Source of the DNA: Salvelinus alpinus
Taxonomy: Eukaryota > Chordata > Actinopteri > Salmoniformes > Salmonidae
Direction: 5' to 3'
Assembly (NCBI RefSeq): GCF_045679555.1
Contig: NC_092096.1
Location: 31,701,624-31,765,623 of the forward strand
Length of the DNA: 64,000 bases
How positions within the stretch are numbered: position 1 is the stretch's first letter; each line of letters opens with the position of its first letter. The notes beneath the pieces were generated by a model. That model was not told the DNA's origin and did not search any database. It saw nothing but the letters and a program-made list of their open reading frames with translations. Shown in pieces: positions 3,084 to 63,755 of this stretch. The position numbers and the translations under genes were made by a program.

Positions 3084-3296
3084 GCACCAGCCGCCCACTG
3101 CATTTTTCCAGTCTCCCTCACTCCATACGGCGTTGGCCACCTCCAGGGCTTTGCCTGAGAGGCAGGAGACGAGGGCGGACACGCTCTCACGTCCCGAAGG
3201 AGCCGGGTGGACAGTCGCCAGGTAGAGTTCCAGCTAGAGTAGGAACCCCTGGCATCTGGCCGCCGTCCCATCATACTCCCTCAGGAGTGCAAGCCG
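3084..3296 (-). mobile_element. Gypsy-type LTR retrotransposon, gag fragment
   Basis: The minus strand resembles the gag of fish Gypsy elements (capsid region). It is an isolated, truncated fossil fragment with no LTR attached, lying between the LINE and the V-J minisatellite. It has the opposite orientation to the Gypsy pol piece that starts at about 3581, so the two are probably separate insertions. Confidence 0.65.
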
Positions 3297-3315
3297 AATC
3301 CGCAAGCGCAAGCCG

Positions 3316-3478
3316 AACTTCAGTACTATCAGTCCCTATTGTATTATACTAGTACTTCAGTACTATCGGTCCCTGTTGTATTATACTAGTACTTCAGTAA
3401 TATCAGTCCATATTGTATTATACTAGTACTTCAGTACTATCAGTCCCTATTGTATTATACTAGTATTTCAGTACTATT
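3316..3478. repeat. V-J minisatellite, block 1 (about 37-bp unit)
   Basis: Tandem copies of a unit containing TACTAGTACTTCAGTACT followed by ATCAGTCCCTATTGTATTA. The unit holds two perfect palindromes, TACTAGTA and AGTACT (twice). The same unit recurs upstream of every J-like segment that follows a V gene in this window. Confidence 0.9.
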
Positions 3479-3548
3479 AGGGTGGTACAGAGAGTGCTCT
3501 GTGAGTGAAGGTGCTCACTCTTATGTGAAGGACTTCACCAGAATTAAT

Positions 3549-3580
3549 CCTTGTGGTAGACTTTTGGAAGTGGCACAAAG
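3549..3580 (+). pseudogene. IgL J segment remnant, cut by Gypsy
   Basis: A heptamer-like CCTTGTG (3549-3555) is followed by GTAGACTTTTGGAAGTGGCACAAA, matching the start of the J at 43397. The homology then stops and Gypsy pol sequence begins. No nonamer is present upstream, unlike at 9.6, 9.9 and 43.4 kb. Not functional. Confidence 0.7.
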
Positions 3581-5840
3581 CACTTACAACTTGGTGCGTA
3601 TCCGAGAGGGAGACGAGTGGAAGATGGCTTTCAGTACCACCTCTGCCGTACGGGTTGATGAATGCGCCATCAGTCTTCCAAGTCTTTGTAGATGAGATTT
3701 TCAGGGACCTGCACGGGCAAGGTGTAGTGGTGTATATCGACGACGTTCTGATATACTCCGCTACACGCGCTGAGCATGTGTCCCTGGTGCGCAGAGTGCT
3801 TGGTCGCCTGTTGGAGCATGACCTGTACGTCAAGGCTGAGAAATGACTGTTCTTCCAACAGTCCATCTTCTTCCTAGGGTATCGCATTTCCACTTCAGGG
3901 GTGGAGATGGAGAGTGATCGCATTGTAGAAGTGCGTAATTGGCCGACTCCCACCACGCTAAAGGAGGTGCAGCGGTTCCTAGGGTTTGCCAATTACTACC
4001 GGAGGTTTATCCGGGGTTTTGGTCAGGTGGCAGCTCCCATTACCTCACTGCTGAAGGGGGGCCCGGTGCGCTTGCAGTGGTCAGCTGAGGCGGACAGGGC
4101 TTTTAGTCACCTGAGGGCTTTGTTTACCTCGGCTCCCGTGTTGGCCCATCCGGATCCCTCTTTGGCGTTCATGGTGGAGGTGGACGCGTCCGAGGCTGGG
4201 ATAGGAGCCGTGCTCTCTCAGCGCTCGGGTACACCACCGAAGCTCCACCCCTGTGCCTTCTTCTCGAAGAAGCTCAGCTCGGCGGAGCGAAACTATGATG
4301 TGGGGGACCGGGAGCTGTTGGCTGTCGTCGAGGCTCTGAAGGCATGGAGACATTGGCTTGAGGGGGCGAGACACCCTTTTCTCATCTGGACTGACCACCG
4401 CAATCTGGAGTACATCCGGGCGGCGAGGAGACTGAACCCTCGCCAGGCAAGGTGGGCCATGTTTTTCACCCGTTTTGTATTTACCCCTTCATACAGACCA
4501 GGCTCTCAAAATGTTAAGGCAGACGCATTGTGCCGGCTGTATGACACAGAGGAGCGGCCCATGGATCCCACTCCCATACTCCCGGCCTCTTGCCTGGTGG
4601 CACCGGTAGTGTGGGAGCTGGACGCCCGACATTGAGAAGGCGATGCGTACAGAGCCCGCTCAATTTCAGTGTCCGGCTGGGCGTATGTACGTTCCGTCTG
4701 CTGTCCGCGACCGGCTAATCTATTGGGCCCATACGTCACCCTCCTCTGGTCATCCTGGTATCGGTCGGACAGTGCGCTGTCTTAGTGAGAAGTACTGGTG
4801 GCCCACTTTAGCTAAGGACGTGACGGTTTATGTTTCCTCCTGCTCGGTGTTCGCCCAGTGCAAGGCTCCTAGACACCTGCCCAGAGGTAAGTTACAACCC
4901 TTATCCGTTCCACAACGGCCGTGGTCGCACCTGTCGGTGGATTTCCTAACCGATCTTCCACCTTCACAGGGTAACACCACAATCCTTGTCGTTGTGGATC
5001 GTTTTTCTAAGTCCTGTTGTCTCTCTTTGCCCGGTCTCCCTACGGCCCTACAAACTGCAGAGGCCCTGTTTACACACGTCTTCCGGCACTACGGGGTGCC
5101 TGAGGATATAGTGTCTGATCTGAGTCCCCAGTTTACGTCAAGGGTCTGGAAGGCGTTCATGGAATGTCTGGGGGTCCCGGTCAGCCTTACCTCAGGTTTT
5201 CACCCCGAGAGTAACGGGCATGTGAAGAGAGGTAACCAGGATGTGGGTAGGTTTCTGAGGTCTTATTGCCAGGACTAGCCGGGGGAGTGGGCAGCGTTCG
5301 TGCCCTGGGCAGAGATGGCCCAGAACTCGCTCCGCCACTCCTCCACTAACCTTTCTCCCGTCCAGTGTGTATTGGGGTTTCAGCCGGTTCTAGCTCCTTG
5401 GCATCAGAGTCAGACCGAGGCTCCTGCGGTGGAGGACTTGCTCCGGCGCGCGGAGGAAACATGGGACGCCGCCCATGTCCATCTTCAGAGCGCCGTACTG
5501 CGCCAGAAAGTTGGCGCAGACCGTCAACGCAGTAAGGCCCCGGTGTTCGCACCGGGGGACTGGGTCTGGCTCTCGACCCGAAACCTGCCCCTCCACTTGC
5601 CCTGTCGCAAGCTGGGTCCGCGGTTTGTGGGGCCATTTAAAGTCCTGAGGAGAGTGAACGAGGTAAGTTACAGGTTACAGCTTCCCCCCGATTACCGCAT
5701 TAACCCCTCGTTTCATGTGTCTCTCCTCAGGCCGGTGGTGGCTAGCTCACTCCAGGAGTCTGAGGTGTGAGAGGTTCCTCTACCCCCTCTGGACATCGAG
5801 GGGGCCCCGGCGTACTCCATTCGTTCCATACTGGCGTTGC
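3581..5840 (+). mobile_element. Gypsy-type LTR retrotransposon pol, truncated
   Basis: A fossil pol region in the order reverse transcriptase (YIDDV box near 3735), RNase H (about 4080-4520), integrase with zinc-binding and core parts (about 4640-5300), and a C-terminal part leading into a chromodomain-like start (about 5560-5840). Both ends are missing and no LTRs flank it. It is broken, with several breaks. It lies inside the J remnant at 3549. Confidence 0.9.
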
Positions 5841-11889: not shown

Positions 11890-14800
11890 GACTTTCATGG
11901 TCCCCCAGGGACTAGCAGAATCCTTTTTCTTTTACGACTCTGACGAGCCCGAGGCGGAGGATATACGGCTCCCTCGGGAACAGAACCTGACCCCAGTCAT
12001 CTGCATGAAGAGAAGACGGAGAAAGAGAGGCCATAGAAAGAGTGCAGGATATCTAAGAAAGTCTTGAGCCATTACTCACCTGAGGTAGAGTATCAAATGA
12101 TAAGCTGCAGACCACATTACCTACCGAGAGAGTTCTCATCTATATTCTTTGTAGCTTTTTACATACCACCACAGTCAGAGGCTGGCACCAAGATAGCATT
12201 GAATGAGCCGTACACCACATCTGTCATTGGCTTCATCAATAAGTGCATCAATGACGTCGTCCCCACCGTGACCGTACGTACATACCCCAACCAGAAACCA
12301 TGGATTACAGGCAGCATCCGCACTGAGCTAAAGGCTAGAGCTGCCACTTTCAAGGAGCGGGACTCTAACCCGGACGCTCATAAGAAATCCCGCTATGCCC
12401 TCCGACGAAGCATCAAACAGGCAAAGCGTCAATACAGGACTAAGATCGAGTCTTACTACACCGGCTCTGACGCTCGTCGGATGTGGCAGGCCTTGCAAAC
12501 CCTTACAGACTACAAAGGAGAGCACAGCCGAGAGCTGCCCAGTGACACGAGCCTACCAGACGAGCTAAATGACTTCTATGGTCACTTCGAGGCAAATAAC
12601 ACTGAAACATGCAGCCGATGTAAGACCTTTAGACAGGTCAACATTCACAAGGCCGCAGGGTCAGATAGATTACCAGGACTTGTACTGTGAGCATGTGCTG
12701 ACCACCTAGCAAGTGTCTTCACTGACATTTTCAACCTCTCCCTGTCCGAGTCTGTAATACCAACATGTTTTAAGCAGACCACCATAGTGCCTGTGCCCAA
12801 GAACACTAAGGTAACCTGCCTAAATGAATACCGACCCATAGCACTTACGTCTGTAGCCAAGGCTGGTCATGGCTCACATCAACACCATCATCCCAGAAAC
12901 CCTAGACCCACTCCAATTTGCATGCCGTCCCAACAGATCCACAGATTATGCAGTCTCTATTGCACTCCACACTGCCCTTTCCCACCTGGACAGAAGAAAC
13001 ACCTATGTGAGAATGCCATTCATTGACTACAGCTCAGCGTTTAACAACATAGTGCCCTCAAAGCTCATCAATAAGCTAAGGACCCTGGGACTAAACACCT
13101 CTCTCTGCAACTGGATCCAGGACTTCCTGATGGGCCGCCCCCAGGTGGTAAGGGTAGGTAACACCACATCCGCCACGCTGATCCTCAACACGGGGGCCCC
13201 TCAGGGGTGTGTGCTCAGCCTCCTCCTGTACTCCCTGTTCACTCATGACTGCACAGCTAGGCACAACTCCAGCACCATCATTAAGTTTGCCGATGACACA
13301 ACAGTGGTAGGCCTGATCACCGACAACAACGAGACAGCCTATACGGAGGAGGTCAGAGACTTGGCCTCGACGTGATCAAGACAAAGGAGATGATAGTGGA
13401 CTACAGGACAAAGAGGACTGAGCATGCCCCCATTCTCATCAATGGGGCTGCATTGGAGCAGGTTGAGAGCTTCAAGTTCCTTGGTGTCCACATCACCAAC
13501 AAACGAACATGGTCCAAGCACACCATGACAGTCGTGAAGCGCGCACGACAAAACCTATTCCCCCTCAGGAGACTGAAAAGTTTTGGCATGGGTCCTCAGA
13601 TCCTCAAAAGGGTCTACAGCTGCACCATCGAGAGCATCCTGACTGGTTGAATCACTGCCTGGTATCGCAACTGCTCGGCCTCCGACCGCAAGGCACTACA
13701 GAGGGTAGTGCGAACGGCCCAGTATATCACTGGTGCCAAGCTTCCTGCCATCCAGGACCTCTATACCAGGCGGTGTCAGAGGAAGGCCCCGAAAATTGTG
13801 AAAGTCTCCAGCCACACTAGTCATAGACTGTTCTCTCTGCTACCGCATGGCAAGCGGTACCGGAGTGCCAAGTCTAGGTCCAAGAGGCTCCTAAACAGCT
13901 TCTACCCCCAAACCATAAGACTCCTAAATATCTAGTCAAATGGCTACCCAGACTATTCACAATGCCCCCCCCCCCCCTCTCCACACCACTGTCGCTCTCT
14001 GTTTTCATCTATACATAGTCACTTTAACTTCTCTTGGGTAGGGGGCAGCATTCGGAATTTTGGATGAAAAGCATGCCCAAATTAAACTGCCAGCTACTCA
14101 TCCCCAGAAGATAAGATATGCATATTATTAGTAGATTTGGATAGAAAACACTCTGAAGTTTCTAAAACTGTTTGAATCATATCTGTGAGTATAACATAAC
14201 ATATTTAGCAGGCGAAACCCCGAGGACAAACCATTCAGATTTTTTTTTTTGAGGTCACTCTCTTTTCAATTAGATTTTATTGGGAAACCAGATTTCTAAG
14301 GGACTTTCTTGCCATTCCTACCGCTTCCACTGGATGTCAACAGTCTTTAGAAATTGGTTGAGGTTATTCCTTTGTGTAATGAAGAAGTACGGCCATCTTG
14401 AAGGAGAGTCACTTGAAGTGTCCTGTTAGATAGAAGCGCGTGACCAGAAAGCTAGCTACAGTTGGTTTTAATCCTGTATTGAACACAGATCATCCAGATC
14501 AAAAATACCTAAAGTTGTATTACAAAAGTAGTTTGAAAAGTTTGGACAAAGCTTACAGGTAACTTTTGAGATATTTTGTAGTCACGTTGTGCAAGTTGGA
14601 ACCGGTGTTTTTCTGGATCAAACGCGCCAAATAAATGGACATTTTGAATATATATCGACGGAAGTAATCGAACAAAAGGACCATTTGTGATGTTTATGGG
14701 ACATATTGGAGTGCCAACAACAGAAGCTCGTCAAAGGTAAGGCATGAATTATATTTTTATTTCTGCGTTTTGTGTCGCGCCTTCAGGGTTGAAATATGCT

Positions 14801-23182: not shown

Positions 23183-24091
23183 GATGTTCCGAGGAACAGC
23201 TAACACCATCAATGAATGCTGAGAACAGAATTTGTTTCAAAGGCTATCTCACCGTGGTATCTAAAAATAACATGAGTAAGCAAAAAGTAGGTGCCTGTGC
23301 TTCTAGAATTCAAGTGGCTTCTTACTGTGAGGCTCTGCTACAGACAATCTGTTGAGGATAAAATAGGAGTTGGTCTCAATTTCTCCCCAGTGGTTCGAGG
23401 TGGTAACAACAGAAACCTCAGTGTTTCGGTGAACCTAGATAGATGTTAAAACACATAAAGAGAAAGATATACCACAGTAACAGAAATGATACAGTAGCCA
23501 AACAGCAAATCAAACCCCACAAAAAGGAATTTAATCTAAAGTGACTCACTGGAAAAAATGCCTAAAAGCACAGAGTTTACTAAAACACAAATTTACATAA
23601 AATATACAAATATAGAGCCTTTTGTTTGGCAAATAATAACGAAAAAAATCTAGATGTTCAGAATGTCATGTGGTTTTGACCAATTCTCGTTAGAGGATTC
23701 ACTCAATCCAATCCCTTTAAAATATGTTGCTTCGTTAAGTTCAGTGAATAGGTCCTTATGTCACAACACGTGCACTTATAGTGAAATACATGACAAAAAA
23801 CATTCTGTCCATTACACTTAGATTTAAGCACCGATACAAAGGTTAGTTACGTGTCTGTTTTCCGACAAAGAAAAAGTGGGATGGATGTTGAGTCTCTTCA
23901 GCAATATCCAACATAGCAACACTGCCTCTTTGATAGAATACAGTACCTCTCCGAAAACAACGCAGGAGACAGGAGACACAGGTCATTGTAATTGTTTATA
24001 CACCTCTTTTCCAGAAGTCATTGTTGAGTCATTGCATCTTTCCTGTGGCTCTACAAAACTGTCTTCAGATGACACTAATGCTTCCTCGTGG
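23183..24091. other. Spacer between V-B and the SANT-array copy
   Basis: Nearly identical to 55357-56267, so part of the segmental duplication. In the minus direction it would be the 3' end and downstream region of the SANT-array gene. A 141-codon plus-strand open frame (23876-24301) is conserved in both copies only because the DNA is duplicated. Confidence 0.5.
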
Positions 24092-27000
24092 TCAGATTGG
24101 AATAATACTCAGGTTCAGTTGCGTCGTCCTCGTCTGACACTGCTCTGCTGTTTTCATGAAGCCCTGGTCAGCCATCATTTGAGAGATCTCTGTATAAATG
24201 TGTTCCAGTTCAGTGTTTCCCCTCAGGACCTCTTGGATTCTGTCACTGCCCCACATGTCAAGGAGGGCTTCAGTCTCCTCAATGCTCCAGGGGAGATCTA
24301 GTTCCCACGGTGATGAACAGCTGCCTGATTCTGGAGAGACTGAAAAAAAAATGAAAACAAAGGCCCAACGTTGATAGTATAACGTAAAAACAGTATTTAC
24401 TATACAGAGATTAGGAGATTGTTTCTTTACCTGTTCCTTGGACTTGCCCACCTGGGACCTCTCCCATGTCTGTGGCGCCGTTTGATTCCTCAGCCAGAGA
24501 GTCACAGGATAGATACTTGTTCCCGAATATTTGCACAAACTGATCGTAGAATTTGCACTCCACTTTTTCCCCTCCAATCCTGGGAAAATAGAACATAACA
24601 TTTGGTTGTTGATGCAATGCTTATTCCTCATATCTGGTTAGTAATGAGCTTTGCTTATCTAACATGAGCATGGCAAACATCTGGCCATGAATACACAACT
24701 GTTCCATCAGTATGGAGTCTTCGTAATCAATTCACAATTATAAATAGTGGGTATCAATTTCAAATCCATATCTTTTCCCCCATGGCTTACTGTTTGCTCT
24801 CGCAGAACTGGCGGAAGTTGGCCTTTAGCCGCTTCACTCTAGACTGGCACTGTTCGGCTGTCCTCAGGTAGCCCTCGTTGGCCATGGCCTGAGAGATCTC
24901 AGTGAAAATGTGTCTGTTTTTGGTGCAGCCCTTCAGATCCTCCTGGACCTCGTCACTCCCCCAGATACTGAGGAGGACCTGGGTCTCACTGTCGCTCCAG
25001 GGGAACTTGGAGCCGTCAGTTAAAGGACGGCTAGCTGAAGACAAAGACACCCAATGAACACATTGTTTACAATGGGAAGTGGGTTAGTTGAAGTAAGACA
25101 ACTCATAGAACATTTAAAGGTATGGTATGGCTTTGCTTTAACTTTTTGACTTTTTAGTCAACCTCAAGTGTAGACTCCCAGACAGCAGCTTCCTCATTGT
25201 CTAACGAATCTTCAGCCAAACTGTCGACTTTGAGCTCTCTCGAGAAATTCTCTTCCATCTGGTCGTAGAACTTACATTCCCTTCTGAGGAAATACTGTTC
25301 AGAGGGAATTTCAGTTGGATCATCAACAGTGATAAAAACAAGACTGCAAATACATCGTTTATTAATGAGATGAAAGGCATGAATTTATATCCGATGATGT
25401 GGTGTAATTTATAAAGTAAATAACTAGACATGAAATGGTAGTTATAAATCCTTTGCATTCACTTGTCATGGTGGAAGCTGGCCTTGAGTCGCTTGATGCG
25501 GGTGTGGCACTGCTCAGCCGTCCTGATGAACCCCTGGGCCGTCATCCTCCGTGAGATGTATTCAAACACATGTCTGTTCTTCAAGCAGCCGCGGAGGGAG
25601 AGTATATTAGGTGGCTACTAAGTACATTTTTAGAAGATTTATTACGACTAGGGTGCTGATTTGACCTGACCAGGACAAACAACTGTTGGCACTGACACAG
25701 GAAAATCACAGGGCCCTAATTACATTAGACTTCGAGGGTAAAGATGATGAGGAGGCACCATACATGTTTCCTGATCTGCTTCCTCAGTGGGATCTAGAAT
25801 GAAGTCATCACACAAATCAACAATCTCTGCATCGGGGAAGAGAGTGTCGTTGCCTAGCACCGGCTCCAGGAACCTGTAGTATCTGAAGAGTAAGGGCTCC
25901 CCTCCGTTTCTGTAGGTACGACCAGAGGTAGAGGGAGGTGGAGAACAATGGGAGGTGAAGGGTTCATTTGTAGCAGGTCCCATTTTAGGCACCATGACTC
26001 GCCTTACCCACAAATAATCTGTGCTTTCCACTTACGTCCTGCTGTGGAGACAACGTCGGTAGGTTTTCCTCAGCCGCTTTAACCTCGAGTGGCACTGCTC
26101 AGCCGTTTTGAAGTGCCCAATGGTGGCCAGCTTCTCTGCTATGTCGGCGAAAATGTGCCCGTTGTGGACGTAGCCTCGGAGGCTCGTCTAGACCTCCTCG
26201 TTCCCCCACAGCTCAATGAGGGCCAGCATCTCTGGCTCCAACCACGGGGTGCATCTCATCCCATCAGCATCTGCTCCCGGAAACATATATATTGGAAACC
26301 TCCAGATCTTAGCTATCGCTCTGCTGATTGGATTGACTGAGTCTTCAGTGTAAACAGACAACTGTCTGTATTACCACCGTACCTGTGTCCTGGTCTACTG
26401 TTTGATCGTCTCTTTCATCATACTCATCAATGGAGGCCGCTTCATGCCCAAGTATTCGCTCCAGCTGATTGTAGAACTTGTATTCCACTCTATTTCTTCC
26501 ACATCTAAGAAGACCAGACAGAAAAGAAAGCCATTTTGATGAGAAAAAAAAGTGTCCTGAAATTTTTCTGGGATGCAGTATTCTGGCTATGGGTTTGATT
26601 AGAGTACACTTATTTGCATGTTTCTGTAAATTAATATCAACATAGAAACATCAGAAGGTGTCCAATTTAAACCTGTTTTGTAAACACATACTTTTGTCTG
26701 TCGTAGCACTGACGGAAGATGTTCCTCATGGACTTGACTTTCCAACGACACTGCTCTGGGGTCTTGGAGTACCCTTGGTCATGCATCTTTTCTGATATGT
26801 CCATGTAGACAGGGCCGTTGTGGACAAAGTCTCTCAGCACCCTCTGAACCTCGTCCTCCCCCCAGATGTTAATGAGGGCCAGGGTCTCAGGATCCGACCA
26901 CGAGCCTGGTGTGATCCTCTCAGAAGTGGTGTAGTTGTCCGCTTCTGTAGACTCTAAATACATTTTTATTTTATCTTTATTTAAACAGGAAAAGCCCATT

Positions 27001-27838
27001 GAGACCCAGAATCTCTTTTTCAAGGGCGACCTGGACAGGAAGGCAGCAACAATCATTACATAATTAAAACATACAACAAAACAGTACAATTCAGCAACAT
27101 GATCCAGCCTAAAAAAAAAACATTTACACGCCTCTGTAACAGAATCTCCCATGAAAAATGTACATTTACATGAAAGTGTCCCTGTTTAGACTTGGCAATG
27201 CAACTTGTGTTGATGGGACGGCACCTACAATAGAACCAGTAGCTAAATATGATGTAACAAACGGGGTTCAATCTGGCATACCCATGCAGGGTGTCATTAG
27301 ATAGTTAGCATAGTTTGAAATGAGCTGAACTTTTACCTTGAAGTGAGTCACTCTTTGATTCCTCTGATATGTCATTGGTCAAGTCTGTCACCACTGTGCT
27401 GCTGGAGGGAGGCTGCCTCTCAAGTATTTGCTCCAAAATATCGTAGAACTTGAAATCAACCTGCTCAGATGAACTAGGAACAGCACAGGTAGAGAGAGAT
27501 TGAATCTAATTTTGCAATCTGTAATCCGATTCACATTAGCTACATTACAAATGTATCAATAACAGAAACTGAAACGCAATGGTTACCTGATGGTTTCTTG
27601 GCACTGCCGATAGCTGGCTTTCAAGCGCTTTATCCTGGTGTGGCACTGCTCTGCAGTTCTGTAATAACCACAGATGTTGACATTTTCCCGAAATCTCTGA
27701 GAATATGTGACCGTTGTGCGGGCAGCGCTTCAGGTTCTGCTGCACAGTGTCGTCTCCCCAGAGCTCCAGGAGAATCACCGTCTCGCCGTCTACCCAGGGG
27801 ATCTTCTTCCTGTCCCATGGCACGCCCACTACAGACTC
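24092..27838 (-). pseudogene. Decayed copy of the SANT-array gene (units 3-8 only)
   Basis: Exon homologies in array order, high to low: S3' 27588-27838, L3' about 27338-27476, S4' 26693-26955, L4' about 26384-26504, S5' 26036-26275, L5' about 25763-25913, S6' 25467-25597, L6' about 25150-25291, S7' 24791-25034, L7' 24431-24579, S8' 24092-24330. S4', S7' and S8' are still open. Damage: one extra base in S3', a Gln-to-stop change in S5' near 26190, loss of the first half of S6', and a stop plus lost donor in L6'. Units 1-2 and the TIN2-N exons are absent, so there is no promoter end. An unclassified 215-bp insertion follows S4' at about 26962-27170. Confidence 0.9.
26962..27170. mobile_element. 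Short inserted repeat in SANT-array copy
   Basis: Absent from the matching position at 59262-59275. Begins TTTTTATTTTATCTTTATTT and contains GCCCATTGAGACCCAGAATC. It resembles fish short repeats of SINE or MITE type; class not settled. Confidence 0.5.
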
Positions 27839-28025
27839 TGGATGGATCAGAGTCAAAGAGAAAGAGTGTGTGAGAAAGACTGGCCCAATCCCAAACCGTC
27901 CACTCACCCTTATCCCTAAACCTTTGTTGCCTCCACCTCTCAGATATCAAAGAATGAGTCAGATATACTAGGATGAGTTTTTTCCCAGTCCTTCTATACC
28001 CATACAGGGGTCTTCAAGTTGATAT

Positions 28026-30797: not shown

Positions 30798-33700
30798 CAA
30801 ATAAAACAAAATACAATTTTATTTGTCACGGGCAAAAAATAAGAAATAATTTATAACTGGTAATTTATCATTTAGAACTTTACTAAATAATTTTGAACTT
30901 TACTAAATAAACTGAAGTAAACAATAAAAAAAGGAAAAAGGAAACAGAAAATAACAAATAATTAAAGAGCAACAATAAAATAATAGTAACTAGGCTATAT
31001 ACAGGGGATACCGGTACAGAGCCAATGGGGGGGTTAGCTGTTCAGGAGTGTTATTGCTGGGGGTAGAAGCTGTTAAGAAGCCTTTTGGACCTAGACTTTG
31101 TGCTCCAGTACCGCTTGCTGTGCAGTAGCAGAGAGAACATTCTATGACTAGGGTGGCTGGTGTCTTTGGCAATTTCCAGGGCCTTCCTATGACACCGCCT
31201 GTTAAAGAGGTCCTGGATGAAAGGAAGCTTGGCCCCAGTGATGTACTGGGCCGTACGCATTACCCTCTGTAGTGTCTTGTGGTTGGAGGCCGAGCAGTTG
31301 CCATACCAGGCGGTGAGGCAACCAGTGAGGATGCTCTCGATGGTACAGCTGTAAAACCTTTTGAGGATCTGAGGACCCATGCCAAATCTTTTCTGTCTCA
31401 TGAGGGGGAATAGGCATTGTCATGCCCTCCTCAAAACTGTCTCGGTGTGTTCGGACCATGACAGTTCGTTGGTGATGTGGACACCAAGGAACTTGAAGTT
31501 CTCAACCTGCTCCACTACAGCGCTGTCAATGAGAATGGGGGCATGCTCGGCCCTCCTTTTCCTGTAGTCCACTATCATCTCCTTTGTCTTGATCACGTTG
31601 AGGGAGAGGTTGTTGTCCTGGCACCACATTGCCAGGTCTCTGACCTCCTCCCTATAGGCTGTCTCATCGTTGTCTGTGATCAGGCCTACCACTGTTGTGT
31701 TGTTGGCAAACTTAATGATGATGTTGGAGTCGTGCTTGGCCATGCAGTCATGGGTGAACAGGGAGTACAGGAGCGGACTGAGCACGCACCCCTGAGGGGC
31801 CCCCGTGTTGAGGATCAGCATGGCAGATGTGTTGTTACCTATCGTCACCACCTGGGGGCAGCCCGACACGAAGTCCTGGATCTAGTTGCAGAGGGAGGTG
31901 TTTAGTCCCAGGGTCCTTAGCTTAGTGATGAGCTTTGAGGGCCTTATGGTGTTGAACGCTGAGCTGTAGTCAATGAACAGCATTCTCACGTAGGTGTTTC
32001 TTTTGTCCAGGTGGGAAAGGGCAGTGTGGAGTGCAATAGAGATTGCATCATCTGTGGATCTGTTGGGGCGGTATGCAAATTGGGCCATGACCAGCCTTTC
32101 AAAGCACTTCATGACTACAGACGTGAGTGCTACGGGTCGGTAGTCATTTAGACAGGTTACCTTGGTGTTCACGGGCACAGGGATTATGGTGGTCTGCTTG
32201 AAACATGTTGGTATTACAGACTCGGTCAGGGACAGGTTGAAAATGTCAGTGAAGACACTTGCCAGTTGGTCAGCGCATGTCGGAGTAAACATCCTGGTAA
32301 TCCGCCTGGCCCTGCGACCTAGTGAATGTTGACCTGGTTAAAGGTCTTACTCACATCGGCTGCGGAGAGCGTGATCACACAGTTGTGTTGGAACAGCTGC
32401 TGCTCTCATGCATGCTTTAGTGTTGCTTGCCTCGAAGCGTGTATAGAAGTAGCTTGTTTGGTAGGCTCGTGTCACTGGGCATCTCACGGCTGTGCTTCTA
32501 TTCGTAGTCCGTAATAGTTTGCAAGCCCTGCCACATCCGACGAGCATTGGAACCGGTGTAGAAGGATTCAATCTTAGTCTTGTGTTGACACTTTGCCTGT
32601 TTGATTGTTTGTCGGAGGGAATAGCGGGATTTCTTATAAGCGTCTGGGTTAGAGTCCCGCTCCTTGAAAGCGACAACTCTACCCTTTAGCTCAGTGCGGA
32701 TTTTGCCTGTAATCCATGGCTTCTGGTTGGGGTATGTTCGTACGGTCACTGTGGGGACAACGTCATCGATGCACTTATTGATAAAGCCAGTGACTGATGT
32801 GGTGTACTCCTCAATGCCATCGGAAGAATCCCTGAAGTTATTCCAGTCTGTGCTAGCAAAACAGTCCTGGTGCTTAGCATCTGCATCATCTGACCACTTC
32901 CATACTGAGCGAGTCACTGGTACTTCATGCTTTAGTTTTTGCTTGTACGCAGGAATCAGGATGATAGTGTTATGGTCAGATTTGCCAAATGGTGGGCAAG
33001 AGAGAGCTTTGTACGCATCTCTGTGTGTGGAGTGAAGGTGGTCTGGAGTTTTTTTCCTCTGGTTGCACATGTAACATGCTGGTAGAAATGAAGTAAAATG
33101 GATGTAGGTTTCAATGCATTAAAGTCCCCTGCCACTAGGAGCGCCGCCGCTGGTTGAGCATTTTCTAGTTTGCCTATGGGTGCGGTCTTAGTGCCAGCAT
33201 CGATTTGTGGTGGTAAATAGACAGCTATGAAAAATATAGATGAAAACTATCTTGGTAAATAGTGTGGTCTACAGCTTATCATGAGATACTCTACCTCAGG
33301 CGAGCACAATTTTGAGACTTCATTAATATTAGATTGTGTGTACCAGCTGTTATTGACAAATAGACACAGACAGCCACCCCTTTTCTTACCGGAGGCAGCT
33401 GTTCTATATTGCCGATGCACGGATAACCCAGCCAGTTGTATGATATCCATGTCGTCGTTCATCAACAACTCGGTGAAACATAAGATATTACCGTTTTTAA
33501 TGTCCCGTTAGTAGGATAGTCTTGATTTGAGCTCATCCAGTTTGTTATCCAATGATTGCATGTTGGCTAATAGGACCGATGGTAGAGGCGGGTTACCCAC
33601 TCGCCCTCGGATTCTTACAATGCAACCTGACCTACGAACCCTATATCTCTGTTTCTTCTTCATGCAAATTATGGTGTTTTGGGCCTTCGGTGGGCCTTCG

Positions 33701-48064: not shown

Positions 48065-48131
48065 AGTAGGTCCCAGCTGTATCACTACAGTCACTGTGCA
48101 GTCTGACTGAGGGAGGTTTTGTATCACTGTG

Positions 48132-48639
48132 TGAACTCATTTTTACTATTGATGTAGTGGTAATTCTGACAGTAGTAATCTCCTGCATCTTCAGTCTGGA
48201 CTCCACTGATGGTCAGAGTGAAGTCACTCCCAGATCCACTGCCACTGAATCTAGATGGCGTCCCAGACTGAAGTGTTGTAGCATAGTAAATAAGGAGTTT
48301 AGGAGCTCCTCCAGATTTCTGTTGGTACCAGTCTAGATTGTTATACACATCACTGCTGGTTTTACAGTTCAGAGAGACTGTTTGTCCTGGAAGAACAGTT
48401 TTCACTGCAGGAATCTGGTGTCCCAGCGACCTGTCCTCTGGATTCTGAAACAGAAATATTTAAGATCTCAGAGAACATTTGGTCATGTTGTCTAAATCTG
48501 TCCAAGTCTCATTTTCTCAATTTGAGACTAAATTAAGATGAAACATTTAAATAATAAACTGATTTTAGACCAACAGAATGTAAATCATACCTTGAAAAAA
48601 ATACATCAATATCCACACAAAGCTCACAATACAAGTAAT
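48132..48639 (-). pseudogene. IgL variable pseudogene V-D
   Basis: Duplicate of V-A. The V exon 48132-48444 keeps [42 protein letters not shown] and DAGDYYCQN. The leader start codon is changed (ATG to ATT at about 48637-48639), FR1 has one extra base near 48413-48420, and the recombination signal has the same lost spacer as V-A (heptamer at 48125-48131, nonamer-like run immediately adjacent). Not functional. Confidence 0.9.
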
Positions 48640-54721: not shown

Positions 54722-54749
54722 GGTTTTTGTACATCTCTGTATCACTGTG
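54722..54749 (-). promoter_or_regulatory. V-E recombination signal, 12-bp spacer
   Basis: Minus strand: heptamer CACAGTG (54743-54749), 12-nt spacer, nonamer ACAAAAACC (54722-54730). Consensus. Confidence 0.95.
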
Positions 54750-55228
54750 TGAATACTCCACCACTGTGGTAACTCTGACAGTAGTAATCTCCTGCATCTT
54801 CAGCCAGGACTCCACTGATGGTCAGAGTGAAGTCACTCCCAGATCCACTGCCACTGAATCTAGATGGAGTCCCAGACTGTAGGGTTTTAGACCAGTATAT
54901 TAGGAGTTTAGGAGCTCCTCCAGGTTTCTGTTGATACCAGTGCAAATAGTGTCCATTGCTGTTACTGTATACAGCACTGCTGGTCTTACAGCTGAGACTG
55001 ACTGAGTGACCCACTGAAACAGCTTTCACTGCAGGAGTCTGGGTCACTGTGACCTGGCCTCTGGACTCTGAAACAGAGATGCTATGTATTTTTAGAATGT
55101 AATTGTTCATTCATTTGTCCAGTACTGTATAAAATAATGACTTTATATTGTTAGGGTAATTTTCTGTAAATTATATCACCTTGAAAGCAGAGGGCAAGTG
55201 TCCAGATGAAGATGGTGATAGAAGTCAT
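54750..55228 (-). CDS. IgL variable gene V-E
   Basis: Leader 55180-55228 (same residues as [18 protein letters not shown]) and V exon 54750-55067. Frameworks match V-B almost exactly. The germline CDR3 end is shorter (CQSYHSGG against [10 protein letters not shown]), giving a 318-nt exon. Open, with a perfect signal and one perfect octamer (55349-55356). It is the rightmost V. Every J lies to its left, so it can join only across intervening modules. Confidence 0.95.
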
Positions 55229-56267: not shown

Positions 56268-56506
56268 TCAGATTGGAATAATACTCAGGTTCAGTTGCGT
56301 CGTCCTCGTCTGACACTGCTCTGCTGTTTTCATGAAGCCCTGGTCAGCCATCATTTGAGAGATCTCTGTATAAATGTGTTCCAGTTCAGTGTTTCCCCTC
56401 AGGACCTCTTGGATTCTGTCACTGCCCCACATGTCAAGGAGGGCTTCAGTCTCCTCAATGCTCCAGGGGAGATCTAGTTCCCACGGTGATGGACAGCTGC
56501 CTGATT
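56268..56506 (-). CDS. SANT unit 8, last and C-terminally shortened
   Basis: S8: LPWSIEETEALLDMWGSDRI, LEHIYTEISQMM, GFMKTAEQCQTR, then a sequence unlike the other units (TTQLNLSIIPI) and stop. The KRLK third-helix part is missing. Two in-frame acceptors are possible (exon start 56506 or 56515). Confidence 0.75.
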
Positions 56507-59500
56507 CTGGAGAGACTGAAAAAAAAAAATGTAAACAAAGGCCCAACGTTGATAGTATAACGTAAAAACAGTATTTACTATACAGAGATTAGGAGATTGT
56601 TTCTTTACCTGTTCCTTGGACTTGCCCACCTGGGACCTCTCCCATGTCTGTGGCGCCGTTTGATTCCTCAGCCAGAGAGTCACAGGATAGATACTTGTTC
56701 CCGAATATTTGCACAAACTGATCGTAGAATTTGCACTCCACTTCTTCCCCTCCAATCCTGGGAAAATAGAACATAACATTTGGTTGTTGATGCAATGCTT
56801 ATTCCTCATATCTGGTTAGTAATGAGCTTTGCTTATCTAACATGAGCATGGCAAACATCTGGCCATGAATACACAACTGTTCCATCAGTATGGAGTCTTC
56901 GTAATCAATTCACAATTATAAATAGTGGGTATCAATTTCAAATCCATATCTTTTCCCCCCATGGCTTACTGTTTGCTCTCGCAGAACTGGCGGAAGTTGG
57001 CCTTTAGCCGCTTCACTCTAGACTGGCACTGTTCGGCTGTCCTCAGGTAGCCCTCGTTGGCCATGGCCTGAGAGATCTCAGTGAAAATGTGTCTGTTTTT
57101 GGTGCAGCCCTTCAGATCCTCCTGGACCTCGTCACTCCCCCAGATACTGAGGAGGACCTGGGTCTCACTGTCGCTCCAGGGGAACTTGGAGCCGTCAGTT
57201 AAAGGACGGCTAGCTGAAGACAAAGACACCCAATGAACACATTGTTTACAATGGGAAGGGGGTTAGTTGAAGTAAGACAACTCATAGAACATTTAAAGGT
57301 ATGGTACGGCTTTGCTTTACCTTTCCTTTGGTCAACTTCAAGTGTAGACTCCCAGACAGCAGCTTCCTCATTGTCTAACGAATCTTCGGCCGAACTGTCA
57401 ACGTTGAGCTCCCTTGAGAAAATCTCCTCCATCTGGTCGTAGAACTTACATTCCCTTCTGAGGAAAGGGAAGATTAGACAATTTAATTTCAGTTGAATCA
57501 TCATATCCTCTGACCACATGTACTATGTAACAATAAGAGTGATAAAAACAAAACTGCAATTACATTGTTTACTAATGTGATGAAATTAAGTAAAGCATTG
57601 ATTTGTTGACTTAAAGATATTGCATCAATTTATATCCGATGATGTGGTGTAATTTATAAAGTAAATAACTAGACACGAAATGGTAGTTATAAATCCTTTG
57701 CATTCACTTGTCATGATGGAAGCTGGCCTTGAGTCGCTTGATGCGGGTGTGGCACTGCTCAGCCGTCCTGATGAACCCCTGGGCCGTCATCCTCCGTGAG
57801 ATGTATTCAAACACGTGTCTGTTCTTCAAGCAGCCGCGGAGGGAGAGCTGCACATGGTCCTCACCCCAGACCTCCAGCAGAGCCTGGGTCTCCCGATCGG
57901 ACCAGGGCATCTTTCTGCTGGACTCCGCCACAGCGTAACTGACTGAGCCCTGGCCTTCAAAAAAATATGTTTTTGGGAGGCTTTAGGTGGCTACTAAGTA
58001 CATTTTTGAAGATTGATTATGACTAGGGTCACGATTTTACCTGACCAAGATAAACAACTGTTGGCACTGACACAGGAAAAACACAGGGCCCTAATTACAT
58101 TAGACTTCAAGGGTAAGGATAATGAGGAGGCACCATACCCGTTTCCTGATCTGGTTCCTCAGTGGGATTTGGATTGAAGTCATCACACAAATCAACAATC
58201 TCTGCATTGAGGGAGAGCGTGTCGTTGCCTAGCACCGGCTCCAGGAACCTGTAGTATCTGAAGAGTAAGGGCTCCCCTCCGTTTCTGTAGGTACGACCAG
58301 AGGTAGAGGGAGGTGGAGAACAATGGGAGGTGAAGGGTTCATTTGTAACAGGTCCCAATTTAGGCACCATGACTCGCCTTACCCACAAATAATCTGTGCT
58401 TTCCACTTACGTCCTGCTGTGGAGACACCGTCGGTAGGTTTTCCTCAGTCGCTTAATCCTCGAGTGGCACTGCTCAGCCGTTTTGAAGTGCCCCATGGTG
58501 GCCAGCTTCTCTGCTATGTTGGCGAAAATGTGCCCGTTGCGGACGCAACCTCGGAGGCTCGCCTGGACCTCCTCGTTCCCCCACAGCTCAATGAGGGCCA
58601 GCGTCTCTGGCTCTGACCATGGGGTGTGTCTCATCCCATCAGCACCTGCTCCGGGAGACATATACATTGGAAACATCCAGTGTCTTCAGTGTTAACAGAT
58701 AACTGTCTGTATTACCACCGTACCTGTGTCCTGGTCTACTGTTTGATCGTCTCTTTCATCATACTCATCAATGGAGGCCGCTTCATGCCCAAGTATTCGC
58801 TCCAACTGATTGTAGAACTTGTATTCCAGTCCCTTTCTTCCACATCTAAGAAGACCAGACAGAAAAGGAAGCCATTTAAAAAATTGAGATGCAGAATTGT
58901 GGCTATGGGTTAGATTATACACTTATTTGTATGTTTCTGCAAATGAAAATCAACATAAAGGGTCCAATTTAAACCCGTTTTGTACACACATACTTTTTCC
59001 TGTCGTAGCACTGACGGAAGTTGTTCCTCATGGACTTGACTTTCCAACGACACTGCTCTGGGGTCTTGGAGTACCCTTGGTCATGCATCTTTTCTGATAT
59101 GTCCATGTAGATGGGGCCGTTGTGGACAAAGTCTCTCAGCACCCTCTGAACCTCGTCCTCCCCCCAGATGTCAATGAGGGCCAGGGTCTCAGGATCCGAC
59201 CACGAGCCTGGTGTGATCCTCTCAGAAGTGGTGTAGTTGTCCGCTTCTGTAGACTCTAAATACAAAACAGCCCAATAACATGAAAGTGTCCCTGTTAAGA
59301 CTTGGCAAAGGAACTTGTGTTGAAGGGACAGCAACTACAGTAGAACCAGTAGTTAAATACATAACAAACAGGGTTCAATCTGACATAGCCATGCTGGGTG
59401 TCATTAGAAAGTTTGCATAGTTTGAAATGAGCTGAACTCTTACCTTGAAGTGAGTCACTGTTTGATTCCTCTGATATGTCAATGGTCAAGTCTGTCACCA

Positions 59501-62500
59501 CTGTGCTGGTAGAGGGAGGCTGCCTCTCAAGTATTTGATCTAAAATATTGTAAAACTTAAAATCAACCTGCTCAGATCCAGATGAACTAGGAAGAGCACA
59601 GGTAGAGAGAGATTGCAAAATTAGAATCAAATCTGTAATCCAATTCACATTAGCAACATGACAAATGTATCAATAATAGAAGCTGAAATGCAATGACTAC
59701 CTGATGGTTTCCTGGCACTGCCGATAGCTGGCTTTCAATCGCTTTATCCTGGTGTGGCACTGCTCTGCAGTTCTGTAATAACCACGGATGTTGAGCTTTT
59801 CCGAAATCTCTGAGTATATGTGACCATTGTGAGGGCAGCGCTTCAGGTTCTGCTGCACAGTGTCGTCTCCCCAGAGCTCCAGGAGGATCACCGTCTCGCT
59901 GTCCACCCAGGGGATCTTCTTCCTGTCCTCTGGCACGCCCACTACAGCCTCTGGATGGATCAGAGTCAAAGGGAAAGAGTGTGTGAGAAAGATTGGCCCA
60001 ATCCCAAACCATCCACTCACCCTTATCCCTAAAACCTTGCTGACTTCGTATCACAGATATCAAAGAATGAGTCAGATATGCTAGGTTGAGTTTCTTCCCA
60101 GTCCTTCAAGTTGATCTTATTATAGTTTAGTAGTGAAAGAGGAACTGGTTAACCAGTAGAGAATGTGACCATACCCCTCTCCTGGGAAGAGTAAACAGAG
60201 CACTCGTTGTCTGCTGACCATGCTTCTCTAGACTCCATGTCAAGACAGTTTTCTGACACCTCCACGTATGAGGGAAGCTCATTCCCCAGTATTCTCTCCA
60301 GTAGGTCATAGAATTTGCATTCTACTTGCTCTCTGCCTTTCATGCTGCGTTTGGGGAAAGACAACAAAGCACATTTTCAAAACAAATCATTTTTCTGGCT
60401 CACATAGACAAAATGTAAGGCATCACAGGATATCAACCAAGAATGTAAAAGCCCGAGCATAGATCCATGTGGGACTCCCAATGCACAAAGAAAATGATTG
60501 TTAAACTATAACTGACATACTTGTTCTCGTAGCACTGTCGGAAACTCCGTTTCAGTCTTTTAACCCTCGTCTGGCACTGCTCTGCAGTCCGGATAAAGCC
60601 CTGGGCAGACATCTTTTGGGATATCACAGCAAAAATGTGCCCATTTCTATGCATACCCCTCAATTCCCTCTGCATTTTGTCATCTCCCCATATGTTGATT
60701 AGGGTGAGGGTCTCCAAGTCTGTCCAGGGAACACTTCTGGTTCCTTGAGTGGAAATAGAGACAAACACAAGAGCAGTGATCACTGATTATTAATCACTTG
60801 ATTGATTTAGATGAATCACATTGCACATTCCAAATGTAAAATCAGCTGTATTAATATTCAAGCAGGATGACCGCTTTATAAAGTGGAGGGCAACATGCTG
60901 CATGCAAACACACATTAGTCCCTTTCCCAAGAGCCAATATTATGTGATTTACCAAGAAAGGCACAATCGGACCATACCCATCTCTTCTAGACCAGAATGG
61001 CCAGGGAACTCCCAATCATCAGTGTCTTCTAGCTGGTCATCTGTCACCTCTTCAACATCATAGGTGACCTCAGGAACCGTTAAGGGGGACACATTCCCAA
61101 GTATTCGCTCTAGCTGGTCATAAAATTTACACTCCACTCTGTATATAGGGAATGGTTTCAGTGTGAGAATATAGACAAGCACATTCCAGGGATATTGTCC
61201 ATAACAAACAAAAATATAGAATAATTATAAATTATAAAGTATATATATATATTGCAAATGTTCTTCTGTAATGTACTCACTTCTGCTGGAGAGACTGACG
61301 AAAGCTGTTCTTCAATCGTTTGATCCTGGTCTGACACTGCTCTACAGTTCTCATGTAGCCTCTCTCAGACATGTTTTTGGAAATGAGAGTGAACACGTGG
61401 CGATTTTTGACACAGCCTTTCAGAACTCGCTGCACAGAGTCTTTTCCCCAAATGTCTATGAGGTTTAGAGTCTCATCATCCGACCAAGGGACTTTGGTGT
61501 CAATCGTCATGGGATAGGCAGCACCTTGGGGTTCTGGACACAAAAGGGTAAGTAAAACTGTTATGCATTTTCTTTTACCATGTACTGTATTTCACATTTC
61601 ATTCAGAATGAACAGAGATTCCACACCTGTGTATTCTCCCCATATCGAGATGAGAGGAGAGTCACTAGAAGATTCGATATTCACTGGAGAATCACTGTAA
61701 AAGAGGAACACAGCAATGTACATAAAGCAGATTTAAAATTCCCTCCCCAAGGGGGAATGGAAAAATGGAATGACATCAAAGGCATGCAGGGAGACACCAA
61801 TATGAGCTACTTCAATATCAGTTCTTACTGAAACAGAGGTGAATCTGCTTGTCGTTTCCGGGGAACCTCCGAACTGTCGCTCATTTTCCTCTTCGAGGGC
61901 AGAGTCTGCCCTCTCCTACTCTCATTTGCTGAAAATGATGTTCCCTCCTCCACAATTTCATCTGTTTCAATTCTGTCCCTCTGTTCATTTCGCTTCTGTC
62001 TTGTTCTCTCAGATATCCTCCTCTTGCCAGTCTCCAGATTTGATTGGTCAATGGGAATCTCAATAATCTCTTCTTTATTTGGATGGTTTGAGATTGGTGT
62101 GGCCTCTTGCAGGTGTTTTTGAGTATGTTTGTCAGCAGTAGTCCCCAGTTTTGTGACCGGAGGGAGAGACAGAGAGGAGAGGATGCAGTCGTTCATAGGT
62201 AAAGAGCAAATGTCTGAGAGAAATAGAGAATGAGGCTTAGTAAATCACTGCGACTTCTCACCCGTTTAGTTACAGTCAAATAATACATTTATAATCAAAG
62301 CAAAGTGATACAGTAGCAAAGATCATTACTCATTAGTCATAATTATCTACTAAGCCAGCCTTACCTTTTACGTCAACGTGTCCAAGATTTCTGTGATGTT
62401 CAATTAAAGCCTTCATTTGCTCTGGCGGAGTCGCTGATTGCAAACACTCATCCAGAACTGAGGGGGCTCCATCAAGCCATGACACCATCTGAGAAAGAGC

Positions 62501-63755
62501 CCTTAGTCATTAGCAGTGGTAGGTCATTAGCAGTGGTAGGTTAAATTTTAATACAATACATGCTGTATTCTGAAGGCTAACTGAAGGCGATAGTCAAGGT
62601 GCGTATGTGAAATAAAATGTTGAGTTCAATGGTAGCACCTGTGCAAAGTCTGGTACAGGCAGCAGCTCCTCCAGTCTGGAGAGGAACTCCCACAGGAGAA
62701 TCTCCAGTGCTGTGTCATACTTCTGGCCGTACTGTACTGGGAACACCTCCTGGGGGAGTTAGAAGACATAGAAAAAAATGGAACCGTGAGTGAGAGGGGG
62801 GAGGGAGAGAGAGAGAGAGAGAGAGAGAAAATGAGGGAGAGTGTCATCATCTCACCAGGAAGAAGTGCTCTTTCACACCTGGGTCTTGTAGCAGGGTTTG
62901 GACCAGCTCCAAGAAATTGGCCCCGGAGTTTTCTACTTGTGCATCAGTCACCTGTAACATGCACACACACCGCGGGAGATGAATTACCCAAACTATGTGT
63001 GTATTTCTTCCTATTGATTAAATGTATTTTATGCACATGAGGCTGCTGAGGGGAGAACGGCTCATAATAATTGCTGGAATAAAGTGAATGGAATAACACA
63101 TGGTAACCATGTGTTTGATACCATTCAATTTATGCCATTTCAGACATTACTATGAGCCCGTTCTCCCCAATTAAGGTGCCACCAGCCGCCTGTGGGTTAA
63201 TGTGCATAGTAAATCACCCACACAGTGGTCCCTGGGTGTAGTAATGGAAGCTTTGATTCTGTCCAGGTGGGGCTGGATGGTCTCAGGGTCGACTTGGTGA
63301 TCACCACGACACAACTCCAGAACCAGCTATGGTCACAAAAAAAGTATTTCAACGCTATCATCTGCGCTCTTGATACACTATCACCAGTGCGCTACTGGTT
63401 TACTGGTTCAACTATCAACCACTGTTCGACAGATTGGAGGAAACTAATATGGTTGTTAGCAATAGCTAAATGTACAAAAATAAACTACATTTCAGTCACT
63501 AAACAAATCCATCTGCAGAAACCCATGCACACACATCCACACACGTGCTAACCCTGGCTCTCAGTCCCAGGATGAGTTGGGCCCTCTGCCGGTAACTCAG
63601 CAGCTCTGGAACCATCTCTGTCACCGAGGTGACAAACTCCTCCAGCATCCCATAATGCATGACAAGTCCTTTCTGCACAACTTGCCACATAGCAGCTGAC
63701 AGAAGTTGCAGGGGTGGGGCCAAAAGCCGTAAATAAGAAATTGATAGAAGGGGAT
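56268..63755 (-). CDS. TIN2-N domain protein with eight SANT-like domains
   Basis: Predicted nuclear DNA-binding protein of 22 exons on the minus strand: five TIN2-N-like exons, two linker exons, then (SANT exon + linker exon) seven times and a final SANT exon. All junctions are GT-AG and all phases agree: SANT exons run phase 1 to 2, linker exons 2 to 1, so the frame continues from 63755 to the stop at 56268. The TIN2-N fold is known from shelterin TIN2 and, in fish, from the N-termini of some DNA-binding protein families; SANT/trihelix domains bind DNA. The function of the whole is unknown. The start may be an ATG at 63786 read through to exon 1, or lie in an exon beyond 63755. Exon coordinates are listed separately. 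Confidence 0.85.
56609..57213 (-). CDS. SANT unit 7 (S7 56970-57213; L7 56609-56757)
   Basis: S7: FPWSDSETQVLLSIWGSDEV, NRHIFTEISQAM, GYLRTAEQCQSRVKRLKANF. L7: EVECKFYDQFVQIFGNKYLS. Confidence 0.85.
57321..57954 (-). CDS. SANT unit 6 (S6 57708-57954; L6 57321-57457)
   Basis: S6: MPWSDRETQALLEVWGEDHV, NRHVFEYISRRM, GFIRTAEQCHTRIKRLKASF. L6: RECKFYDQMEEIFSRELNVD and an acidic tail. Its duplicate in the left copy has lost the first half. Confidence 0.83.
58139..58645 (-). CDS. SANT unit 5 (S5 58411-58645; L5 58139-58284)
   Basis: S5: TPWSEPETLALIELWGNEEV, NGHIFANIAEKL, HFKTAEQCHSRIKRLRKTY. L5: PLLFRYYRFLEPVLGND, the most altered linker (Cys lost). The acceptor of S5 is taken as the CAG ending at 58646. 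Confidence 0.8.
58724..59255 (-). CDS. SANT unit 4 (S4 58994-59255; L4 58724-58845)
   Basis: S4: GSWSDPETLALIDIWGEDEV, NGPIYMDISEKMHDQGYSKT, PEQCRWKVKSMRNNF; the most divergent unit (TAEQC becomes TPEQC). L4: LEYKFYNQLERILGHEAAS. A fragment of S4 is found at 40534-40607. Confidence 0.85.
59444..59950 (-). CDS. SANT unit 3 (S3 59701-59950; L3 59444-59586)
   Basis: S3: IPWVDSETVILLELWGDDTV, NGHIYSEISEKL, YYRTAEQCHTRIKRLKASY. L3: QVDFKFYNILDQILERQPPS; here the VECKFYDQL motif is more divergent (VDFKFYNIL). Confidence 0.85.
60175..60743 (-). CDS. SANT unit 2 (S2 60521-60743; L2 60175-60332)
   Basis: S2: VPWTDLETLTLINIWGDDKM, NGHIFAVISQKM, GFIRTAEQCQTRVKRLKRSF. L2: QVECKFYDLLERILGNELPS and an acidic tail. 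Both keep the phase rule. Confidence 0.85.
60978..61533 (-). CDS. SANT unit 1 (S1 61281-61533; L1 60978-61138)
   Basis: S1: VPWSDDETLNLIDIWGKDSV, NRHVFTLIS, GYMRTVEQCQTRIKRLKNSF, with the three Trp/Phe-type core positions of a trihelix fold. L1: VECKFYDQLERILGN followed by an acidic tail (VTYDVEEVTDDQLEDTDD). Confidence 0.85.
61627..62213 (-). CDS. Linker exons 6 and 7 (basic/acidic, nuclear-signal-like)
   Basis: Exon 6 is 61829-62213 and exon 7 is 61627-61694. Low-complexity charged sequence with basic clusters KRRISERTRQKR and PSKRKM and EVPRKRQ, likely nuclear localisation signals, and acidic stretches (KEEIIEIPID). Exon 7 is short and Ser-rich (NIESSSDSPL). Enters phase 1, leaves phase 1, joining into SANT unit 1. 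Confidence 0.75.
62365..63755 (-). CDS. TIN2-N-like domain exons (exons 1-5)
   Basis: Exons 63553-63755, 63222-63326, 62856-62951, 62639-62749 and 62365-62488. Text in order: YLRLLAPPLQLLSAAMWQVV, MHYGMLEEFVTSVTEMVPEL, SYRQRAQLILGLRAR; LVLELCRGDHQVDPETIQPH; VTDAQVENSGANFLELVQTL; EVFPVQYGQKYDTALEILLW; MVSWLDGAPSVLDECLQSAT. AA-x-WQVV, LEEF, P-x-L-x-x-YR and L-GL-A resemble the N-terminal helical domain of TIN2 (TINF2). Whether it binds shelterin partners cannot be told from sequence. Confidence 0.82.
62800..62829. repeat. GA microsatellite in intron 3
   Basis: (GAGA)n between exon 3 (62856-62951) and exon 4 (62639-62749) of the TIN2-N gene. Confidence 0.9.

Follow-up and report, generated by a model that had tools for sequence, protein, structure and literature searches.

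A TIN2-type domain joined to eight SANT/trihelix units in one gene model, a variant within a TINF2_N-headed family of putative DNA-binding proteins

TIN2 is the scaffold of shelterin, the complex that protects telomeres. Telomeric Myb domains of the TRF type carry the telobox, a VDLKDKWR-like motif. The trihelix protein GT-1 from Arabidopsis recognises the site GGTTAA, which is similar to the telomeric GGTTAG. KRAB and SCAN are head domains of multiplied zinc-finger families with varied DNA-binding arrays. FiNZ likewise heads a multiplied zinc-finger family whose arrays vary (PMC10547256). The TRFH domain of mammalian TIN2 binds peptides of TPP1 and TRF2, for which F152 and E153 are needed (PMC8262337, PMC7617103), and replacement of A15 by R in human TIN2 abolishes TPP1 binding (PMC8262337).

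The gene described here lies in a 64-kb stretch of DNA (the window) at 31.70-31.77 Mb of contig 11 in a 2.37-Gb genome. Like TIN2 (PDB 5xyf), it encodes a whole TINF2_N (TRFH-like) domain with a glutamate at the place of the TPP1-contacting E153; unlike TIN2, its protein model lacks a strict TRF-docking motif and carries eight DNA-binding domains, and its head is placed, with modest support, in a tree away from the probable fish tinf2 pair. The DNA-binding units are like GT-1 (PDB 2ebi, 2jmw; PF13837) in profile and in fold, as modelled for the second unit only, but they stand as eight tandem units behind a TIN2-type head. The likeness to KRAB, SCAN and FiNZ families is one of analogy; those heads are unrelated to TINF2_N.

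The gene model and its domains

An earlier note on this DNA had claimed that a single open gene, in unbroken phase over 22 exons, encodes a TIN2-type head followed by eight SANT/trihelix units. The gene model rebuilt from the sequence upholds this reading, and the coordinates, exon count and unit count given there were all correct. The 22 exons run on the minus strand from 63755 to 56268 (Table 1), and the joined frame comprises 1,360 codons with a single, terminal stop. All 21 introns are of the GT-AG type and the phases agree across the whole model, every 'a' exon of the SANT units being 1-2 and every 'b' exon 2-1. The Pfam search that the same note had proposed recovered TINF2_N (PF14973) with an E-value of 8.8e-56 and 188.8 bits against a cut-off of 29.4, over 149/149 profile positions, and Myb_DNA-bind_4 (PF13837) in each of the eight units at 48.0 to 74.9 bits, above the cut-off of 27. 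Compared with human TIN2 (5xyf) by phmmer, the head gave an E-value of 6e-15. It is these domain E-values that carry the argument against a chance origin of the gene model.

Table 1. Exons of the window gene, truncated copies of its array and the shared alignment end point (phases in brackets)
Feature	Position	Strand	Basis or remark
E1, first TINF2_N exon found (1-0)	63553..63755	-	frame, Pfam
E2, TINF2_N (0-0)	63222..63326	-	frame, Pfam
E3, TINF2_N (0-0)	62856..62951	-	frame, Pfam
E4, TINF2_N (0-0); W/E at human F152/E153 places	62639..62749	-	frame, Pfam, 5xyf alignment
E5, end of TINF2_N region (0-1)	62365..62488	-	frame, Pfam
E6, family motif DCILSSLSLPP and basic linker (1-2); TAA at donor if unspliced	61829..62213	-	
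E7, 68-nt linker exon, phase-restoring (2-1)	61627..61694	-	frame
S1a, SANT/trihelix helices 1-3 (1-2)	61281..61533	-	frame, Pfam
S1b, domain-end stretch VECKFYDQLERILG, then acidic linker (2-1)	60978..61138	-	frame, Pfam
S2a	60521..60743	-	frame, Pfam, AlphaFold2 model
S2b	60175..60344	-	frame, Pfam
S3a	59701..59950	-	frame, Pfam
S3b	59444..59586	-	frame, Pfam
S4a	58994..59255	-	frame, Pfam
S4b	58724..58845	-	frame, Pfam
S5a	58411..58645	-	frame, Pfam
S5b	58139..58284	-	frame, Pfam
S6a	57708..57954	-	frame, Pfam
S6b	57321..57457	-	frame, Pfam
S7a	56970..57213	-	frame, Pfam
S7b	56609..56757	-	frame, Pfam
S8a, degenerate final unit and stop codon	56268..56515	-	frame, Pfam, K/R count
Copy B, truncated broken S3-S8	23825..28021	-	S1, S2, TINF2_N not found; repeat-like sequence above
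Copy C (L037)	contig 11:31.665 Mb		
Copy D (L036)	contig 37		possible ohnologue
End point of local alignments with the three truncated copies, S2b-S3a intron	60107..60107	.	

The eight units form one clade and are all built on a common two-exon plan, a pattern consistent with tandem duplication. They resemble trihelix GT-1 in profile and fold, the fold having been modelled by AlphaFold2 for S2 only and compared by VIA-align with 155 chains. Their recognition stretches hold 6-9 K/R in 26 residues in S1-S7; S8 is degenerate, with 2 K/R in the 20 residues before the stop. The window protein contains no match to a relaxed telobox pattern, and neither a TTAGGG or CCCTAA doublet nor a C2H2 pattern occurs anywhere in the 64-kb window. 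By eye, the E7 peptide SDSPLISIWGEY looks like the opening residues of a SANT domain (LIDIWGKD) and is maybe the remnant of a ninth unit.

The places corresponding to human F152 and E153 were read from the alignment with 5xyf, where a numbering offset of 2 fits F152, E153 and K160. They hold W and E in the window gene and in the two loci L024 and L028, as in 16 of the 24 domains compared; the others have GG (four finger loci), WQ (three) or CQ (one). The A15 place is occupied by L in the window gene and by V in L024 and L028. Judged from these residues, the window head may still be able to take a TPP1-type peptide, and some of the finger relatives perhaps not. The GG residues are those of L009, L011, L012 and L013, a hint that one subgroup has lost docking of the TPP1 type.

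Downstream of the TINF2_N exons, a motif D-x-[ILV]LS-x-LS[LFIH] was found in 19 of 24 loci examined (raw count), among them the window gene, L024, L028, and finger and SANT types; it is missing from L014, L022, L025, L027 and L034, the last of which was not covered downstream. This family motif resembles the TRF-docking motif [FY]xLxP but does not match it. In the protein model, which lacks the first exon, [FY]xLxP has no match, the nearest being LSLPP at residue 228; L024 alone has YLLSP at the motif place.

TINF2_N-headed genes in the same genome

The joining of the two domain types had been presented as unusual, and the genome search does not support a one-off fusion: TINF2_N heads a large family, and contigs 22, 26 and 29 again combine it with SANT. 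Scoring of 150 of 196 candidates gave at least 125 exon-level matches to TINF2_N. At least 60 first-exon matches (starting at profile position 1-9, counted by eye, the window's own included) lie on 13 contigs (2, 3, 7, 10, 11, 21, 22, 23, 26, 29, 30, 31 and 37), many of them clustered. Twenty of the 25 best first-exon matches, best-scoring rather than random, were taken as sampled loci (L009-L028), with 10 kb around each, mostly downstream and overlapping for L009/L011 and L021/L022.

C2H2 fingers were present downstream on the same strand in 18 of the 20 sampled loci and SANT units in none. An open frame with at least five fingers occurs somewhere in 16 of the 20 (in L021 the longest is that of a neighbour copy), and L010 and L026, with at most one and two fingers in an open frame, look degraded. 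In L009, L011, L012 and L013 one uninterrupted reading frame holds both the motif and 11 fingers, and in L021 one holds the motif and four. Across 151 distinct fingers, variability is among the highest at contact positions -1, +2 and +3. These TINF2_N-C2H2 genes have the same head as the window gene, phase-0 domain exons where checked and, in most, the family motif, but their DNA-binding part consists of C2H2 fingers, which the window gene lacks. The window gene itself shows the TINF2_N exons, the family motif and a downstream DNA-binding array that characterise the family.

The 24 TINF2_N domains were placed in a tree rooted on L024/L028 (L027 was dropped; L034 and L026 are partial). The earliest branch is the finger locus L021, and the largest finger group has the window gene as its sister, a node with support of 0.77 with the window gene and 0.86 without it. 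The window domain groups with the zinc-finger types rather than with the L024/L028 pair at this modest support (0.77). It shares 55-56% of residues with L024/L028 and 54-76% with the remaining 21 domains, and because these ranges overlap identity alone cannot separate the pair from the others. L024 and L028 are the probable tinf2 pair, since they stand apart in the tree and neither fingers nor SANT units were found in the 9.5 kb fetched for each.

Matches to PF13837 occur at 70 places in the genome (134/134 candidates scored). Apart from the window array and its copies, some of these matches on contigs 22, 26 and 29 cluster with TINF2_N, and fingers are present there too. On contig 29 (L032 and L033) the TINF2_N exons come after a SANT exon that bears an ATG and has a phase-1 donor; behind them lie an open frame of 548 residues, holding the motif and two SANT units, and then seven finger patterns. 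Contig 26 carries a relative (L038), likewise modelled with TINF2_N, two SANT units and C2H2 fingers. On contig 22 (L035) a SANT exon with a phase-1 donor leads to TINF2_N and then to a frame with eight fingers. These models come from sequence alone, and the splices to the fingers are putative. They unite TINF2_N and SANT within one gene model as in the window; they differ in that their SANT units are uninterrupted or lie in a 5' exon, belong to other clades and are followed by fingers.

As E1 is entered at phase 1, codon 1 being completed by an upstream exon, at least one further exon must lie upstream. No start exon was found in the ~6.9 kb above E1 (L031). The upstream flanks of relatives gave no blastn match to this stretch, no SANT exon was found in it, and none of four candidate stretches aligned locally for a first exon scored clearly above shuffles. 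A pattern for a short ATG exon followed by a phase-1 GTRA[GC] donor (first donor only) had no match in the 3.5 kb above E1. Among the finger types, L001 and L004 have a short start exon (MDKRVK...) with a phase-1 donor; in the contig-29 and contig-22 genes the exon before TINF2_N is the SANT exon, again with a phase-1 donor.

Broken array copies and rival readings

We prefer, with a probability of about 0.6, to read the locus as a single protein-coding gene that belongs to a large family of TINF2_N-headed DNA-binding proteins and carries a SANT array where most sampled relatives have fingers; its product would act as a tether to repeated DNA. Three truncated and broken copies of S3-S8 (B, C and D) provide a comparison. 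In-frame stops interrupt 2 of 673 compared codons in B, 1 of 206 in C and 2 of 526 in D, with exons lost or cut, and the 5 kb above the contig-37 array (L039) contain no match to TINF2_N, S1 or S2. The dN/dS values against the window gene are 0.40 (B), 0.35 (C) and 0.44 (D). With D as outgroup, 10 synonymous and 9 nonsynonymous changes fall on the window branch, and 11 and 20 on that of B. If the nonsynonymous share expected under neutrality is set at 0.79 (site count), p is 0.002 for the window copy and 0.045 for copy B; at 0.72, our correction for transition bias, the values are 0.02 and 0.23. The window copy is intact and, as judged from the substitutions, under purifying selection.

All alignments of B, C and D to the window gene stop at the same base of the S2b-S3a intron (Table 1), and the flank beyond it is common to the copies. 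Exon/intron identity to the window gene in S3-S4 is 95.0/88.0% for B, 92.6/90.8% for D and 97.5/95.4% for C, and the site patterns there (A being the window copy) are AC|BD 20, AD|BC 4 and AB|CD 1. The shared end and the AC|BD excess would be explained either by a truncated copy that seeded B, C and D followed by conversion of C, or by a recent join. The latter would mean that S3-S8 were once a separate block, to which TINF2_N-S1-S2 was joined at 60107 only in the window copy. The end point and upstream flank that the copies share with each other and not with the window gene, together with the grouping of the window copy with truncated C, speak for such a fusion; S1 and S2, however, share clade and exon phases with S3-S8, and the S2b-S3a intron is a compact 224 bases in the window gene against repeat-like sequence in B, C and D. 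Moreover, the exons of copy B are 99-100% identical to those of the window gene in S7-S8 as against 92-99% in S3-S6; conversion tracts are therefore probable, and the closeness to C could be due to them. Truncation plus conversion is clearly favoured over a recent join, in view of the compact window intron and of S1 and S2, which are members of the same array clade. We regard the fusion as unlikely, if the least improbable of the rivals, and it would be compatible with a fused gene that now works in the manner preferred here.

About as unlikely is that the locus yields two products, a short TIN2-like protein from E1-E6 and a SANT array expressed as a separate gene or isoform. Read unspliced, the E6 donor gives a TAA at once (SPLFQ*), so that a short product without SANT units is possible, and L024 and L028, with neither fingers nor SANT units, have the family motif within long open frames of 295 and 267 codons. 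Against this, the E6 donor is GTAAG, E7, without which E6 and S1 would be out of phase, restores the phase exactly, and its own donor fits S1, 93 bases further on. That the gene is a relic, open by chance or recently dead and making no protein, is improbable: its three sister arrays are broken and its last unit is degenerate, but 1,360 codons are open with intact splice sites, and nonsynonymous changes on the window branch are fewer than neutral. Least credible of all, and very improbable, is that the gene is fish TIN2 itself, working in shelterin. The full TINF2_N domain, the motif common to the probable tinf2 genes and an identity of 55-56% to L024/L028, compared with 54-60% to the finger types L009-L013, would suit it; the domain nevertheless sits with the zinc-finger types, apart from L024/L028 (node support 0.77), and [FY]xLxP is absent.

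Possible function and other features of the window

If the window gene encodes a single tethering protein, the basic and rather similar recognition helices of S1-S7 would recognise a series of short, related DNA sites, S8 would no longer bind DNA, and the array would achieve multivalent binding to clustered short sites. By analogy with the binding of TPP1 and TRF2 peptides in mammals, the TINF2_N head and the motif could dock a peptide-bearing partner, which the protein would bring to repeated DNA; telomeric, satellite or transposon-derived DNA are all possible. The sequence evidence suggests that a telomere-protein domain has been reused as a general DNA-tethering head.

On its sequence features the window gene is a variant within this TINF2_N-headed DNA-binding family, of which the literature matches listed, covering few subscription journals and preprints, contain no description. 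The family itself is a larger surprise than the window gene and merits separate study. A wider proposal, which we put forward tentatively and consider doubtful, is that in salmonid-like fish the TIN2 head serves as a KRAB-like effector module: dozens of TINF2_N proteins with fingers or SANT units would bring a partner of the shelterin type (TPP1/POT1 or a substitute) to repeats or transposons throughout the genome, and the window gene, with its 7-8 trihelix units, would be specialised for arrays of a single short site, perhaps of GT-box or TTAGGG-like DNA. The multiplication of the TIN2 domain tens of times in one genome, at the head of zinc-finger and SANT proteins, would mean that a telomere-protein module has joined the fast-growing kind of DNA-binding family that KRAB, SCAN or FiNZ usually head. 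It opens two questions to test: whether these proteins act in competition with shelterin or feed into it, and whether repeats can be silenced or marked through a head of the TIN2 type.

Elsewhere in the window, open frames at 54742-55110 and 48127-48459 on the minus strand are, by eye, immunoglobulin light-chain V-like, and those at 2218-5767, 12037-13372 and 31423-33118 resemble, again by eye, transposable-element reverse transcriptase or integrase.
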